The notes under the pieces are model-generated. The model had not been told where the DNA came from and searched no databases. It saw only the letters and a list, made by a program, of their open reading frames with translations. A program made the position numbers and the translations under genes. From Arthrobacter sp. TMP15 (GTDB lineage Bacteria > Actinomycetota > Actinomycetes > Actinomycetales > Micrococcaceae): DNA of 64,000 nucleotides. Shown here one piece after another: positions 6,637 through 45,803 of the stretch (positions within the stretch are counted from its first letter, which is position 1; every line of letters starts with the position of its first letter). The stretch spans positions 2,046,001 through 2,110,000 of the forward strand of contig NZ_CP154262.1 in NCBI RefSeq assembly GCF_039529835.1, given 5' to 3'.

Positions 6637-7484
6637 TTGCTCAGTGGAATAGGACGAACTGTTAATATCTGTTCCGTTCGCCCAAAGGGGCCGTTCACAT
6701 CGTTAAGTACCGAGGAGGTCAATCCGATCCCATCTGCGCCGAGACTGACATGGGTGTCCAGTCCCAGCCACTGCCCTACCGGTTCACGGTAGATGTGGAT
6801 GGAAAGGTCCACATTGGGGAACATATAGCCGCCCGGCTCCGGCGTCATGCGCGCGGAAACCCCATTGGCGCTATCGGCCAGCCCCAGCAGCCGCACCAAC
6901 GCAGAAGAGTGCTCTCCGCCGTCAAGCATGGTAAACGGACTGTGTAACCAGGCCCGCCCCCGGCCCGGGGCATGTCCGGGGCAAGAACGGCCCTCGAGAG
7001 TTTTGATGAAACCCCCTGGCCAGATAGTCATGCCGTCCCAGGGGATGGAGCTCTCAAGGCTATCGAGGGGTTGATCCGCGTAGGCTTCAACAGCGGTTGT
7101 GTCATTTTTTTGCAGACGCCATGCCGTGACGCGCACTGCAACCCGACCCTCGGCAATCAGCTCCGCCTGGAGTAGCTCAATGGTCCGCCCAGGACGTAGG
7201 AGCATGGTTTCGATAGTGAATTCTCCGGCGGGAATCAAGCCCAAAATATCAAAGCTCAACCGGGCCAGACGCATGTCATCGCGTGGCCGGTATTGCTCCA
7301 AGGCGTGAACCATGATGCCCGTGACCGGGGCCATATGCTGTTCGTGCGAGTTCCAAGCACCCTGGGCATGCACGGTTGATTCGTAGCGGTTCTCACCGAG
7401 GTGGCGGTAGTAAGAATTACTGTCAACGGGGAATGTATGGGCGTCAGCGGTGTCAGCGGCTGCGCCCGTGGTGGTCTGCGACAT
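6633..7484 (-). CDS. Acyl-CoA thioesterase family protein (double hotdog)
   Basis: About 283 residues from the chosen ATG. Recognisable pieces are HMAPVTGIMVHALEQY, RLARLSFDILGLIPAG in the first hotdog and GYMFPNVDLSIHIYREP with SSVLNDVNGPFGRTEQ in the second. Such TesB-like proteins hydrolyse acyl-CoA. The ATG at 7484 leaves 44 bp from the upstream VTT gene; an earlier in-frame ATG at 7580 would overlap that gene and adds a non-conserved stretch. It is coupled by a 4-bp overlap to the lipoate ligase-like gene, suggesting shared acyl-group metabolism. Confidence 0.8.
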   Translation of the reverse strand: MSQTTTGAAADTADAHTFPVDSNSYYRHLGENRYESTVHAQGAWNSHEQHMAPVTGIMVHALEQYRPRDDMRLARLSFDILGLIPAGEFTIETMLLRPGRTIELLQAELIAEGRVAVRVTAWRLQKNDTTAVEAYADQPLDSLESSIPWDGMTIWPGGFIKTLEGRSCPGHAPGRGRAWLHSPFTMLDGGEHSSALVRLLGLADSANGVSARMTPEPGGYMFPNVDLSIHIYREPVGQWLGLDTHVSLGADGIGLTSSVLNDVNGPFGRTEQILTVRPIPLSK

Positions 7485-9928: not shown

Positions 9929-10020
9929 CCGTGACACTGGGATAGGCTCTGCTTTTGAGCTGCGAAAAGCTAGCGCACAAAAAGTCTTGTTCACCATTGA
10001 GATACTGGGGTTCTCCAACT

Positions 10021-10953
10021 ATGCGCACAGACACTAAACACGCAGGTAATAAGAGCAATAGCTACGTAGTTGCTTACCTTTTCATCGGCGTAGCGGCGGC
10101 CATCGCAGGATTCTTGCCATGGCTCGTTACGGGGATGCGTCTGCCGCTGCAGAACCTCTGGGCAACCAGTACCCCACCGGGTCAAATGCCAATATCACTT
10201 CTCCCCTTTAGCCAGTACATGCTTACTCTTATTGCCGGGCTCATCATCACGGGATCGGCCATTGCTGGAGGAATCCTACGCCTGAGACGTTCACGACTTC
10301 CCCGCTTTGGCGCCACGGCAGCGGTCATTGGACTCTTGGGTGTGCAGCTTGCCGCCACGCTCCAGGCCAGCCTGACGGTATCAGCCGGATTACTGGATAA
10401 CCAGGCCGCTGAGCTTTACCTGTCTGCACTATTAGCGGGCACAATTGCCTCCATCATGGTTGGCGTTCTGGTCCTGTTCCTTATTTCGCGTGCCCCTGCC
10501 TCCGGTGCTGTGATCGGAGCAAGCTTCGCCGCCGTGGCCCTCGCACCATGGCTTAGAGCACTCCTCATACCGCTCAATGACGTGACAACGTCACCGAACT
10601 CCTTCACGCTTGGTCTGATCCACTGGTTCCCGGCCGTTGTAGTGGGGCTGGCGATTGCCTGGTCGGTCTCCATGTCAACAGCTCGTTTGCTTGCGGCAGG
10701 ATTCAGCCTCATCGTGCTGTGGTTTGGACCTGCCCTGTTCGCCGCTATCAGTATTGCCGCTGGCAGTCGTGTCCTTGCCTATCAGCCCGCTGGAATGGCG
10801 AAACTCGGTGCAAGCTCATTCCTGAACTTCATAGACTACCGTTCAGGCTCATTGGCCCCATTGGTTGTGGCCGCAGCAATAGCCACTGCCGGTTCTATTT
10901 GCCGCTCACTTTTCAAGAAGTTCAACCGCTCATCATCCGTCTCGCCTGCCTAG
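10021..10953 (+). CDS. Hypothetical multi-pass membrane protein upstream of the retron
   Basis: A 310-residue protein with about eight hydrophobic segments, the first being VVAYLFIGVAAAIAGFLPW and the last LAPLVVAAAIATAGSIC, and a basic C-terminal tail. I recognise no family. The ATG at 10021 is preferred over a TTG at 9955 because the first span then follows a short polar N-terminus. Its stop lies only 7 bp before the extended retron stem, so retron RNA may be read from the same transcript. It could be an unrelated resident gene or a retron partner; the sequence does not decide. Confidence 0.7.
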   Translation: MRTDTKHAGNKSNSYVVAYLFIGVAAAIAGFLPWLVTGMRLPLQNLWATSTPPGQMPISLLPFSQYMLTLIAGLIITGSAIAGGILRLRRSRLPRFGATAAVIGLLGVQLAATLQASLTVSAGLLDNQAAELYLSALLAGTIASIMVGVLVLFLISRAPASGAVIGASFAAVALAPWLRALLIPLNDVTTSPNSFTLGLIHWFPAVVVGLAIAWSVSMSTARLLAAGFSLIVLWFGPALFAAISIAAGSRVLAYQPAGMAKLGASSFLNFIDYRSGSLAPLVVAAAIATAGSICRSLFKKFNRSSSVSPA

Positions 10954-10960
10954 CCCGGGG

Positions 10961-11182
10961 CCTGCCTCGCCCGGGGTATCCGGGTAGCGGGGGTATCCGG
11001 GTCCGCGCCGATCCCTACTGTGGAGCCGGCTGCTCTCGCCCCGGGGCGCCGAGACTGCCACCTCGACATCTCTGCACGTCGGCGCCCGCATCGGTTACCG
11101 TGGATTCAGGTGAAGGTCTCCCGACGAGGTGGAGAGGCACATGTTGGGCTCTCCTCTCCGGGGATACCCCGGGGCACGCAGT
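10961..11182 (+). ncRNA. Putative retron noncoding RNA (msr-msd)
   Basis: A perfect 12-bp inverted repeat, CCCGGGGTATCC at 10970-10981 and GGATACCCCGGG at 11162-11173, encloses 180 nt and fits the a1/a2 repeats of a retron. The stem extends outward through an internal loop with CTGC (10962-10965) and GCAG (11178-11181). Just inside a1 is TAGC, placing a branching-guanosine candidate at 10987, as in known retrons. Interior inverted repeats: 9 bp (11044-11052 with 11079-11087), 8 bp (11058-11065 with 11125-11132, competing with the former) and 7 bp (11131-11137 with 11153-11159). The msr/msd border cannot be set without folding or msDNA data. Confidence 0.75.
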
Positions 11183-11204
11183 ATTGCTCGAGCAAGCACC
11201 GCGA

Positions 11205-11235
11205 GTGGGTCTCTGCGCTTCGCGCAGCAGCCCAC
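11205..11235 (+). other. Stem-loop in the leader between retron ncRNA and reverse transcriptase
   Basis: GTGGG (11205-11209) pairs with CCCAC (11231-11235), and within it CTGCGC (11213-11218) pairs with GCGCAG (11222-11227) around a TTC loop, with a 3-by-3 internal loop between. It is outside the a1/a2 pair and 73 bp before the ATG chosen for the reverse transcriptase. It could end or attenuate the ncRNA transcript, limiting enzyme synthesis. Confidence 0.45.
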
Positions 11236-11308
11236 CCGCACCGACAGATGAGTCGTCTTGAGGCCTTCACCGTCCTATTGCGGCACCACGAAGGGATGGC
11301 ATCGACCC

Positions 11309-12727
11309 ATGGTCCACAGCCAAGCCCACGGCACGGACTCGGAAACGGCCAGCCGAGACGTTCCAGGCGGCCATTTCCATCTCCGTGGCCATACCCCTCA
11401 CCCGTCGTCGGCAACCGTAGCCGCGGCGCTGGCCCACGCATTCTTAGCCGCCCCGGCGTGGACCGCTGACGGGCTAATCGCTGCTGGTACGCAAGTTTTG
11501 GGTGTCCGACGGCGATGGCTGGGACCGCTGGTGAGTTCAGTCATCGGCGCTTATCACTACAAGCCTGCCGACGCTCCCCGCGAACTCGCAGCCTACATTG
11601 GCCAAAGTGATTCCTTCGCCGGAGCGGTCGCTAAGGCCCTCACCCAGCGAAAGCCTCTACGGATAGCGCGTTACGTACTCGCCGAGCCCGAGCAACGCCA
11701 AGGAACCCACCCCGTTCCAGCCATTGCCGGGCTTGCACAATTAGCTAGAGTTCTGGGACTGACGCTGGGTCAATTGGAGTGGTTTGCCGATACCGGCCAC
11801 TGGAATCGGCTCGCTGGCAAGGGGCCTCTTCAGCATTACCGGTACAAATGGCTAGTGCGTCCGGGCAGAACGCCACGGTTGTTGGAAATTCCAGGGCTGC
11901 GCCTGCGGGCAATCCAGCGCAAGGTTTTGCAGGAACTGCTGAGCCCTCTCCCCTTACACGACGGCGCTCACGGTTTTGTCCCCGGCCGCAGCGCGGTCAG
12001 CGGAGCCACCCAACAGGTAGGCAGTGACACTGTCATTTCACTGGATCTAACGAGTTTCTTTGCCACAGTCACCGCTGGCAAAGTGTTCGGGATCCTGCGG
12101 CAGGCCGGCTATCCAGAAGCAGTGGCTCATACCCTAACTGGTCTAAGCACCCATGTAGTTCCACCATGGGTCATCACGTCAATGCCAGCCGGAGGAAGCT
12201 CCGCTGAACGATTTGCTTTAGCGCAGTCATTGCGGATTCCCCATCTGCCACAGGGCGCACCTGCGTCTCCCATGTTGGCCAACCTGGCACTACGACGACT
12301 GGATTCACGGCTCCAAGGTTGGGCTGAGAAGGCAGATACGCGTTATACGCGCTACGCCGATGACCTGAGTTTCAGCGGCGGTACTTCGTTGATTCAACGG
12401 GCAGACAGCTTCATTCGTGGCGTGAGCGTGATAGTTGCTGACGAGGGACACCTGCTCAATGAAAGAAAAACGCGGGTGCGCTCGGCCAGTACCCGTCAAC
12501 AGGTCACGGGCATTGTGGTGAACCAGCGTACCAATATGCCCCGCCGCGACTTTGATGCCTTGAAAGCTACCCTGCACAATTGCGTGGTGCACGGCCCAGA
12601 AACTCAGAACCAGGCTGGGCACACGGATTTTCGTGCCCACTTGTTGGGCAGGATCACGTGGCTTGAGTTCCTCAACCCCACTCGCGCAATACGCTTGCGC
12701 CGGGACTTCGAGAAGATTCGCTGGTAG
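11309..12727 (+). CDS. Retron reverse transcriptase (Mx162-like lineage)
   Basis: A 472-residue protein from the ATG; an in-frame TTG at 11258 would give 489. The polymerase core is clear: HGFVPGRSA, SLDLTSFF with the first catalytic Asp, PHLPQGAPASPMLANL, and YTRYADDLSFSG with the YADD box (residues 349-352). Domain 7 holds the retron VTG triplet in QVTGIVVN. The C-terminus ends with HTDFRAHLLGRITWLE. About 190 residues precede the core, a feature shared, from memory, with myxobacterial Mx162/Sa163 retron enzymes. It would copy the upstream RNA into msDNA. The ribosome site is weak (AAGGG 13 bp upstream). No maturase or CRISPR partner is seen, arguing against a group II intron or DGR. Confidence 0.93.
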   Translation: MVHSQAHGTDSETASRDVPGGHFHLRGHTPHPSSATVAAALAHAFLAAPAWTADGLIAAGTQVLGVRRRWLGPLVSSVIGAYHYKPADAPRELAAYIGQSDSFAGAVAKALTQRKPLRIARYVLAEPEQRQGTHPVPAIAGLAQLARVLGLTLGQLEWFADTGHWNRLAGKGPLQHYRYKWLVRPGRTPRLLEIPGLRLRAIQRKVLQELLSPLPLHDGAHGFVPGRSAVSGATQQVGSDTVISLDLTSFFATVTAGKVFGILRQAGYPEAVAHTLTGLSTHVVPPWVITSMPAGGSSAERFALAQSLRIPHLPQGAPASPMLANLALRRLDSRLQGWAEKADTRYTRYADDLSFSGGTSLIQRADSFIRGVSVIVADEGHLLNERKTRVRSASTRQQVTGIVVNQRTNMPRRDFDALKATLHNCVVHGPETQNQAGHTDFRAHLLGRITWLEFLNPTRAIRLRRDFEKIRW

Positions 12728-34332: not shown

Positions 34333-34470
34333 GCCATCATTGTCCCATTCTTTGCGTGTGCTTTTCTCCTGCAGTACCAGAAGTGCCAGAAGCGGTAATG
34401 GTGTGGCGCTGTTGCTGGCGGAGGGCAAAAAATCCGGCCACCCACAAGGGATGACCGGACCGTATTTTTG

Positions 34471-34543
34471 TGGAGCTGAGGGGACTCGAACCCCTGACCC
34501 CCTGCATGCCATGCAGGTGCGCTACCAGCTGCGCCACAGCCCC
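34471..34543 (-). tRNA. tRNA-Ala (GGC), copy 1
   Basis: On the minus strand the 73-nt gene starts GGGGCTG and ends CAGCTCCA. The acceptor stem pairs over 7 bp with one G-T; the anticodon stem CCTGC/GCAGG holds loop ATGGCAT, giving anticodon GGC; the T loop contains GGTTCGAGTCC. The 3' CCA is not encoded here (CAA follows the discriminator). Confidence 0.97.
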
Positions 34544-34607
34544 AAAACAATAAAAACTATTTAGTTATAAACCACTGCACAGGAACTATCTCCAACAGTG
34601 TGTTTGG

Positions 34608-34680
34608 TGGAGCTGAGGGGACTCGAACCCCTGACCCCCTGCATGCCATGCAGGTGCGCTACCAGCTGCGCCACAGCCCC
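34608..34680 (-). tRNA. tRNA-Ala (GGC), copy 2
   Basis: It is identical over all 73 nt to the copy 64 bp away. Here the genome does encode CCA after the discriminator base. Being upstream in the transcript direction, it probably leads a two-gene tRNA unit; the promoter should lie in the A/T-richer sequence 34681-34792. Confidence 0.97.
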
Positions 34681-44142: not shown

Positions 44143-45681
44143 CTAGATCTCGCTTGGAACGTGTTGATGCGGTGCCGCAAAAAAATCCACCTCGTACTGT
44201 ACAGAATGCGCAAAGGCGGCCCGCATACGTTCTCTTTCCAGGGCCGATCCCCTGCGCGCGGCCGTATCCATGATGCTCACGGCTGTGGCCGCTGCCTGAG
44301 CAAAGTCGTCGTCGGCGTATGTCGCCAGCCACGTGCCATAGGGATGTTCGCCCGAAAAGGATAGGTAATCGGCATGCAGCACACGCCCCACTTCTGCGTA
44401 CAGCCAGTAACACGGAAGAACTGCGGCAACCACTTCCGCATAGCTGCCGGAGAATCCAACACCTTGCAAATGGTCCACGTAGTGCTTTGTCACCGGGCCC
44501 TGTTGCGGATTTGCGGGCTGCCCATTGAGCCAGTTGCGGTGCAGCTGCAATTCAACTTCAAGACAATTCTGTGCCCCTGCCGCCCAGAACTTCTGCTCCA
44601 TTTCGGTTGGGGCCAAGGAACTGGCACGGGCAAGGACACGCGAGTATGCGCTCAGGTACAGCGCATCCTGAACCAGGTAATAGGCAAAGTGGTTGCGTTG
44701 TAACGTACCGGCGGCTAATTCCTTAATGAACTCAAGAGCGAAAATTGCTTGTCGTTGGGGTTCGATGTGCGCCCACAATGCTGCACTGAATTGCCCGGCT
44801 CCAGGCGCTGCGTTCTCCCACAGTGCGTGCAGGTGGTTGACGGGGCCTGCACCGGAGCCAACCTCTAGCACCTCGGATGTCTCAAGGGCCCTACCCAGCC
44901 ACTCCTTGGCTTGCTGGACGCTGGCAATCCAATCACCAGTTTGAGCCTGCAAAGTAGCCACTGCCGCCGACAATGAGCACCCGGTTCCGTGAGTATTCAC
45001 GGTATCTATCCGAGCGCCAATGAACTCATTGACCACACCGTCAGGGTGAACCAGTGCGTCGGGGCACAGCTCCCCCGCCAAGTGCCCGCCCTTCACGAGC
45101 ACCAAGACCTCATGAGTCGCGGCCAGCTCCTTACCCTGCTGAACGGCGGCCTGCCAGCTTGCAGCTTCCGGTTGGTCAAGGAGAACCCCTAGCTCTGGGA
45201 GATTCGGAGTCACTAGGTGCGAACTTTTAATGAGTTCCAGTAAAGCTTCACGGGCGGCCGGGGCCACAAGCATGTCTCCGCTAGTAGCCACCATGACCGG
45301 GTCCAGTACAACCACGGCGGGCCGGGTCCGCGCCAGCCACTCTCTCACCGCGTTGATGACTTCTTCAGTGCCAAGCATGCCGATCTTCACGGCATCTATG
45401 GTGACGTCGGAAGCTACAGCGTCCAGTTGGGCTGTGAGGAAAGTTGCCGGTGGAGTATGGATGTCTTGTACTCCCCGCGTATTCTGCGCAGTTAATGCCG
45501 TAATGGCAGTCATTGCATATCCACCGTGGGCTGAAATAGATTTAATGTCAGCCTGGATACCGGCACCGCCCGATGAATCAGAACCTGCAACACTCAGGAT
45601 CCGGGGGTGCTTCACAGTTGCGGGCACGGTGGTGCGTTGCCCAGTTTCAGAAGTGGAAGAAACTGTTGCGTAGGTACTCAA
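44143..45681 (-). CDS. ThiD-TenA fusion: HMP-phosphate kinase with thiaminase II-like domain
   Basis: A 512-residue two-domain enzyme of thiamine synthesis. Residues ~27-270 form ThiD (VAGSDSSGGAGIQAD, KIGMLGTEE, LDPVMVATSG, NTHGTGCSLSAAVA), which phosphorylates hydroxymethylpyrimidine phosphate. Residues ~290-505 form TenA (HFAYYLVQDALYL, VLPCYWLYAEVG), which salvages pyrimidine from degraded thiamine. The TTG start lies 7 bp after AAGGGA, which is part of the TPP riboswitch. The fusion gives two adjoining pyrimidine steps in one chain. Confidence 0.94.
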   Translation of the reverse strand: MSTYATVSSTSETGQRTTVPATVKHPRILSVAGSDSSGGAGIQADIKSISAHGGYAMTAITALTAQNTRGVQDIHTPPATFLTAQLDAVASDVTIDAVKIGMLGTEEVINAVREWLARTRPAVVVLDPVMVATSGDMLVAPAAREALLELIKSSHLVTPNLPELGVLLDQPEAASWQAAVQQGKELAATHEVLVLVKGGHLAGELCPDALVHPDGVVNEFIGARIDTVNTHGTGCSLSAAVATLQAQTGDWIASVQQAKEWLGRALETSEVLEVGSGAGPVNHLHALWENAAPGAGQFSAALWAHIEPQRQAIFALEFIKELAAGTLQRNHFAYYLVQDALYLSAYSRVLARASSLAPTEMEQKFWAAGAQNCLEVELQLHRNWLNGQPANPQQGPVTKHYVDHLQGVGFSGSYAEVVAAVLPCYWLYAEVGRVLHADYLSFSGEHPYGTWLATYADDDFAQAAATAVSIMDTAARRGSALERERMRAAFAHSVQYEVDFFAAPHQHVPSEI

Positions 45682-45684
45682 TGG

Positions 45685-45764
45685 GACATCCCTTCGCCGG
45701 TTCTAACCGGGCAGGTTCAACGGGTATTCTCTCAGCCAGCCCTGATGGCATGGCACCCCGTGTC
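45685..45764 (-). promoter_or_regulatory. TPP riboswitch controlling thiD-tenA
   Basis: On the minus strand the THI-element pieces appear in order: GACACGGGGTGCC, GGCTGAGAGAATACCC, GTTGAACCTG, GGTTAGAACCGGCGAAGGGA and TGTCCC. CTGAGA and ACCC are the pyrimidine-binding core. The 3' strand contains AAGGGA (45689-45694), the only ribosome site for the TTG start, so TPP binding should hide it and block translation. Confidence 0.96.
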
Positions 45765-45803
45765 GATCTCCACCCTAGCCCCAGCCGTGACGCTTAAAGA
45801 AAA

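Follow-up and report, generated by a model that had tools for sequence, protein, structure and literature searches.

Does the chromosome of Arthrobacter sp. TMP15 carry a genuine retron, and where does its RNA lie? In an initial annotation of the window (the whole stretch of 64,000 nucleotides that was analysed, part of a genome of 3.7 Mb), a reverse transcriptase (RT) gene and a structured RNA upstream of it were read as a retron of the a1-branch G-msr-msd-a2 plan, with a perfect 12-bp inverted repeat as its boundary. The soil bacterium TMP15 indeed harbours a genuine retron, made up of an RT and an RNA that should serve as its template for DNA synthesis. This identity is based on the kinship of the RT and on the covariation seen in the RNA. 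The following features were assigned:

11096..11101, plus strand: -10-like hexamer TACCGT (TAnnnT) just 5' of a1, from which the retron RNA is likely transcribed
11107..11272, plus strand: retron ncRNA (msr-msd), 166 nt, from cmsearch, covariation and fold
11109..11127, plus strand: a1 arm, from a blind helix search and covariation
11128, plus strand: candidate branch guanosine, the first base past a1, within a GAGG present in all 27 rows
11131..11154, plus strand: msr stem-loop 1, with double-sided change in 6 of 8 pairs and 78.8% of cells paired
11156..11174, plus strand: msr stem-loop 2, CTCCGGGG-ATA-CCCCGGGG, 8 pairs of which 6 never vary, with 100% of cells paired
11201..11239, plus strand: msd hairpin, outer part 11201-11208 with 11232-11239, inner part 11213-11218 with 11222-11227
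11253..11271, plus strand: a2 arm, pairing with a1, from the blind helix search and covariation
11309..12727, plus strand: retron RT, 472 aa from ATG, in an ORF open from TTG 11258
11390..11656, plus strand: stretch encoding the five-helix N-terminal domain of the RT, from structure prediction and conservation

The closest twin of the locus is found in Arthrobacter sp. H35-MC1 (L024), where the RT and eight adjoining proteins are 99.4-100% identical. Upstream of the retron lies an ORF (9955-10953) encoding a hydrophobic protein of 332 aa with no Pfam or NCBIfam match. It was rejected as a candidate effector, having no match in the syntenic relatives at the nrd site (L029-L032).

The RT was characterized by profile and structure comparison. 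Its ORF spans 11258-12727; the first codon, TTG 11258, falls within a2, and full-length relatives outside the species align only from residues 14-49 of this long form. The in-frame ATG 11309 is the likelier start. Among the PADLOC profiles, RT_other scores about 576 bits and RT_outgroup, which is described as retron, 540 bits, followed by RT_XIII with 274 bits. The best of the NCBIfam retron models is retron_St85_RT with 144.8 bits (under its cut-off of 235), while the NCBIfam group II model reaches 55.8 bits for a cut-off of 300. Among proteins of solved structure, retron RTs are the best matches in sequence as well as in fold, with the Ec86 RT at E 2e-30 and Z 25.6, respectively; the predicted structure of the TMP15 RT is good (mean pLDDT 90, pTM 0.75).

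Both motifs named in the initial annotation, YADD and VTG, were confirmed in the RT ORF. The former reads YTRYADD, with both Asp residues invariant in 38 rows, and the latter, at the start of region Y, reads QVTGIVVN; VTG occurs in 28 of the 38 rows and VTS in 5, other triplets being single or double. In alignment A2, rows L137-L140 may start upstream of the true start codon. The NAxxH motif of region X is absent from TMP15, which reads GAxxQ, the sole Q in the 38 rows; 33 rows have GAxxH and one has NAxxH. According to the portion of PMC6868368 that was available, NAxxH is present in 14 of 16 validated retron RTs and is typical, not defining, and a survey available in part (PMC4244168) describes its His as fully conserved wherever the motif is present.

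An RT tree of 62 rows (L030, L039, L121, L125, L136 and L141 were left out) places nine rows labelled group II by motif on a separate branch (100/100). Together with its plasmid relatives, the family makes up a clade (100/99), adjoining other retron-like RTs with weaker support, and L158 (St85 family), the sole RT in the tree that is annotated as a retron RT, comes in on the family side at 92/99. Because of several long branches, the inner order of the tree is unsure. The proposed separation from group II intron RTs is thus seen in this tree, from which DGR RTs are absent. With retron profiles and structures as the best matches of the RT, and with a covarying a1/a2 helix in the RNA upstream, the earlier assignment to retrons was upheld.

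For the RNA, cmsearch on 11107-11272 gave 152.2 bits (E 9e-32; the TMP15 sequence is itself part of the model), and this stretch folds much more strongly than its shuffles (z -4.67, 0 of 200 as good). Comparison of upstream regions across relatives brings out a single conserved RNA that stops a short way before the RT. Covariation was assessed in 27 distinct homologues; alignment A1 was made without L121, whose letters are identical to those of L120, and without L028, from the same species. Over a structure of 49 pairs, 93.1% of the cells are paired and 30 of the 49 pairs are changed on both sides. Double-sided changes amount to 159 cells, with a shuffled mean of 46.9 and none of 500 shuffles as high. 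The a1/a2 helix is changed on both sides in 16 of its 19 pairs; in the msd hairpin this holds for all 8 outer pairs, while 5 of the 6 inner pairs never vary. When the partners are slid by 1-3 columns, the paired cells fall to 40-47%, a comparison in which the structure has an edge as it was drawn from one member, L036. RNAalifold, run unaided on the same alignment, recovers the same main helices with 42 pairs. In the blind helix search, another helix ranks above a1/a2 in several loci, e.g. L026, L035, L041, L126, L133 and L135.

Of 40 loci, 36 have a TAnnnT hexamer within 24 nt 5' of a1, versus 12 of 451 background pieces; it is missing from L128, L133, L134 and L135. A sigma-70 scan returned no full promoter. 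The fourth base of GAGG is variable in more distant loci. As described in PMC6868368, in the portion available, the branch G lies within or directly past the a1 stem, mostly in TAGC and also in CAGC or GAGC. G11128 is therefore a candidate branch guanosine, for which a role in 2'-5' priming would follow by analogy.

These coordinates differ from those first suggested. In the initial annotation, a1 and a2 were the arms of the 12-bp inverted repeat (10970-10981 with 11162-11173), and a candidate branch G was put at 10987. The repeat exists, is perfect and is locally rare, being one of two in the 64 kb whose arms are 100-220 nt apart; the TAGC after its first arm (10985-10988) is there as well. 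Against this reading, the best left-arm matches in 39 relatives reach 6-9 of 12 positions, with a mean of 7.54 versus 7.59 for shuffles, so the arm is not conserved in homologous loci. The right arm is taken up by the 3' part of the nearly invariant local hairpin 11156-11174, which is paired in 27 of 27 rows. The fold of the upstream region (10955-11190) goes just modestly beyond that of shuffled sequences (z -2.05, with 7 of 200 folding as well). The repeat as RNA boundary and G10987 as branch site were wrong, and this version of the retron is hardly credible; we take the repeat to be a local feature of the TMP15 genome. What stands of the plan is the conservation, upstream of the RT, of an RNA whose a1/a2 helix covaries; the repeat, branch site and limits proposed for it do not stand. 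Elsewhere in the window, two tRNA-Ala (GGC) genes on the minus strand (34470-34543 and 34605-34680, spaced by 61 bases) also yield inverted-repeat signals, with arms from 34498-34502 and 34635-34639, and a TPP riboswitch is found on the minus strand at 45672-45770 (61.3 bits).

The RNA could also be used by the RT in another way, e.g. in DRT-like, protein-primed synthesis, with no branched msDNA being formed. The loose NAxxH motif is in line with this. Against it, an invariant G lies directly past a1 at the a1/a2 helix, retron RTs top both structure lists, and the retron models outscore the NCBIfam DRT models, which stay below their cut-offs (Drt2 33.9 bits for a cut-off of 390, Drt3a 21.4 bits for 200). 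We consider such a use very unlikely. By analogy with known retrons, the TMP15 retron probably makes branched msDNA. The RT would bind the ncRNA and use the 2'-OH of G11128, where the a1/a2 helix ends, as its primer. Reverse transcription would then start just 5' of a2, at about 11252, and copy through the msd hairpin, giving a branched molecule of RNA and about 60 nt of DNA that would be held by the RT.

The covariance model matches the TMP15 genome once. Beyond the rows of the model, it has a match 5' of the RT in 14 of 15 distant actinobacterial loci from the order and phylum samples (E<=2.9e-5); the fifteenth, L141, matches at E 0.022. Among plasmid loci, the match lies directly upstream of the RT on two Burkholderia plasmids (L154, E 2.2e-7; L155, E 5.4e-9) and in Tsukamurella (L156, E 7.2e-14) and Dietzia (L157, E 4e-14). 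As controls, two retrons from outside the family gave best scores of 17.4 bits (L158, E 0.021, just past the RT) and 7.4 bits (L159). A scan of 396 phylum genomes returned only G000 and a weak partial match in G582 (E 0.008, likely chance). It missed G811, G840 and G860 because its stricter filters lose remote members; the loci of all three match in a direct search.

Within the genus, 18 of 23 genomes (TMP15 and a second genome of its species included) have a full-length RT, and the same 18 have the RNA, the RNA matches being largely by construction because most of these carriers are in the model. Neither part is whole in the other five, and 20 of the 23 show some RT match. The RT of G007 is an unlike one. 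It belongs with distant retron-like RTs of the same order (312-400 aa, YADD or YSDD; L020 in G007, L064-L066, L081 and L082); no RNA-model match was found at L064-L066, L081, L082 or L046, the wider G007 locus. In G022, likewise at the nrd site (L045, positions 7010-7240 on the reversed locus), the RT match is confined to the 77 C-terminal residues (413-489) and the ncRNA was not found, leaving a decayed retron between the AMP ligase and NUDIX genes. Other broken copies are L136, whose RT is interrupted by an inner TAG, and L125, with a shortened RT and no RNA match. In wider samples, any RT match was found in 22 of 197 family, 19 of 396 order and 27 of 396 phylum genomes, these matches being partly weak and to other RTs. 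All genome counts refer to sets with one or two genomes per species.

The rows of the RT tree, taken on its own, largely group by taxonomic family within the order. Four nrd-site rows of the TMP15 genus form a clade (100/99), and L126, from genus g29 at the same site, adjoins it (93/94). Copies from genus g23 (L119, L120) are nested inside the clade of the TMP15 genus, which points to some transfer. Within Micrococcaceae, the retron seems to be inherited vertically for the most part, with occasional relocation to another site. RT relatives occur in 12 of 50,697 phage records, none at >80% coverage, and in 176 of 72,556 plasmid records, four of them at >80% coverage. A phage origin was rejected, since none of the phage matches reaches 80% coverage of the RT. 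For the RT, dN/dS ranges from 0.12 to 0.25 (9 pairs) and for its N-terminal domain from 0.10 to 0.50; the TMP15-L029 pair, whose dS is saturated, gives no ratio. The GC3 of the RT is 0.61, versus 0.72-0.80 in three adjoining genes.

These data bear on two rival explanations. It might be a stand-alone selfish or decaying element with no function, as the broken copies (the G022 remnant, L125 and L136) could indicate. The dN/dS values and the compensatory changes argue instead for upkeep of both RT and RNA, and we hold this explanation to be improbable. Alternatively, the msDNA might have a chromosomal, non-defence role and be kept by vertical descent, as is described for myxobacterial retrons in the available part of PMC6868368. 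Such a housekeeping role agrees with the grouping of the RT tree by family, the site common to two genera, the purifying selection and the scarcity of phage and plasmid relatives. It fits less well with the deviating GC3 and the seven flank contexts within one genus, and the absence or decay in 5 of the 23 genomes marks the element as dispensable. We regard this role as possible, if on balance doubtful.

According to PMC12548924, in the part at hand, retrons typically consist of an RT, an ncRNA and a toxic effector. The neighbouring genes were surveyed within about 6.5 kb. By a codon-position G+C rule, at most two neighbours per side were chosen, giving 127 ORFs from 32 of 44 loci after ORFs of >900 aa were dropped; the rule skipped the NUDIX gene of TMP15, and one ORF taken as an L136 neighbour is apparently a fragment of the broken RT of that locus. 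No effector family recurs among the neighbours examined. Among the matches listed (25 of 83 PADLOC and 25 of 125 Pfam families), the commonest PADLOC match occurs in 5 of the 127 neighbours and the commonest Pfam match in 4, and the only retron accessory family among the listed PADLOC matches is ATPase-Toprim_I-B, in 3 neighbours. The 44 loci fall into 24 flank contexts when both sides must match and into 16 when either side suffices, one group of 18 loci under the latter rule possibly arising via common gene families. The 17 carriers compared in the TMP15 genus occupy seven contexts under the both-sides rule. In Burkholderia pyrrocinia, the relative lies between SDR oxidoreductase and carboxypeptidase genes; in Tsukamurella, a HAD-like gene comes next, and for Dietzia an incomplete gene table shows none over the next 900 bases. 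Across these differing neighbourhoods, RT and RNA stay together.

A tripartite retron of the ordinary kind, with its effector encoded elsewhere in the genome, would accord with the typical composition and with the survey range of about 6.5 kb. The known effectors of described retron types are adjacent or fused, and no neighbour family recurs in the loci examined; we deem a distant effector unlikely. As no recurrent effector was found among the neighbours examined, the best guess is that the output lies in the RT-msDNA complex or that the role is a chromosomal one.

One candidate part of such a complex is the domain at the N-terminus of the RT. It comprises five helices (residues 34-112) that are kept in 35 members, with six invariant columns and a mean column identity of 56%; predicted alone, the domain reaches a pLDDT of 85.9. 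It has scattered weak Pfam matches and no convincing family, and structure searches were uninformative (best Foldseek E 2.4, best VIA-align Z 4.6), which is not evidence of a new fold. No known domain besides the RT was found in the protein. The RT-msDNA complex itself, perhaps via this domain, might do the work, either in phage sensing with a built-in output or in a chromosomal role.

Taken together, we read the TMP15 element as a member of the clade that PADLOC calls RT_other/RT_outgroup, effector-less or self-contained. With a probability of roughly 0.8, it is a single-copy, chromosomal, two-part retron with a covarying ncRNA and an RT, which would make msDNA and seems mostly vertically inherited; that the RT-msDNA complex is its output is the weaker part of this reading. 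Weighing against it are the unique Q in region X, VTG in 28 of the 38 rows, the NCBIfam retron scores below cut-off and the deviating GC3. A more far-reaching version is tentative and less likely than not: a self-contained, effector-less retron type in which a new five-helix RT domain acts as sensor or output, inherited mostly vertically in actinobacteria and with an RNA architecture shared with Burkholderia, so that msDNA alone would provide the sensing or regulation.

The initial annotation had presented the locus as an undescribed system. This holds in part only, because the PADLOC RT models RT_other and RT_outgroup ('retron') already cover the clade. Within the retron, no Rfam family reaches its gathering score, all matches being sub-threshold. 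In the titles and abstract beginnings of the retron papers listed for Actinobacteria, Arthrobacter, Micrococcales and Burkholderia/Streptomyces, no description of this RNA was found. Already known are thus the RT models for the clade and, from the available part of PMC12548924, a retron with no obvious effector (Retron-Bth1); the RNA is absent from Rfam. The present analysis adds a worked RNA anatomy, tested by compensatory change, for an unclassified retron clade. The 18 carrier genomes of one genus offer a setting for asking what a retron with no neighbouring effector does. If RT and RNA alone give a phenotype, the tripartite view of retrons needs widening, and genome editing in high-GC actinobacteria may profit from a compact retron that is native to them.

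Among known systems, Retron type XIII (PADLOC RT_XIII, 274 bits) is the next best typed model, matching the RT part and leaving the N-terminal domain unmatched. Retron-Eco1 (Ec86) resembles the TMP15 retron in its RT fold (Z 25.6, 297 aligned, rmsd 7.4), YADD and VTG. The Ec86 RNA also has the order a1-G-msr-msd-a2, as in the TMP15 retron. Unlike Ec86, the latter has no recurrent adjacent effector, carries an extra N-terminal domain and has another RNA. Retron-Bth1 of Bacillus thuringiensis is similar by description, as RT-DNA is made and there is no obvious effector (PMC12548924, in part); it differs in being extrachromosomal and in having a group II intron that splits its RT gene. The myxobacterial retrons Mx162, Sa163, Mx65 and Ne144 are likewise described as having an extended RT N-terminus, Mx162 and Sa163 share likely vertical inheritance with the TMP15 retron, and Mx65 has its branch G in GAGC where TMP15 has GAGG (PMC6868368, available portion). 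The closest counterparts are the PADLOC models RT_other and RT_outgroup, whose match spans the RT and the N-terminal domain and which both match 38 of the 38 aligned members.
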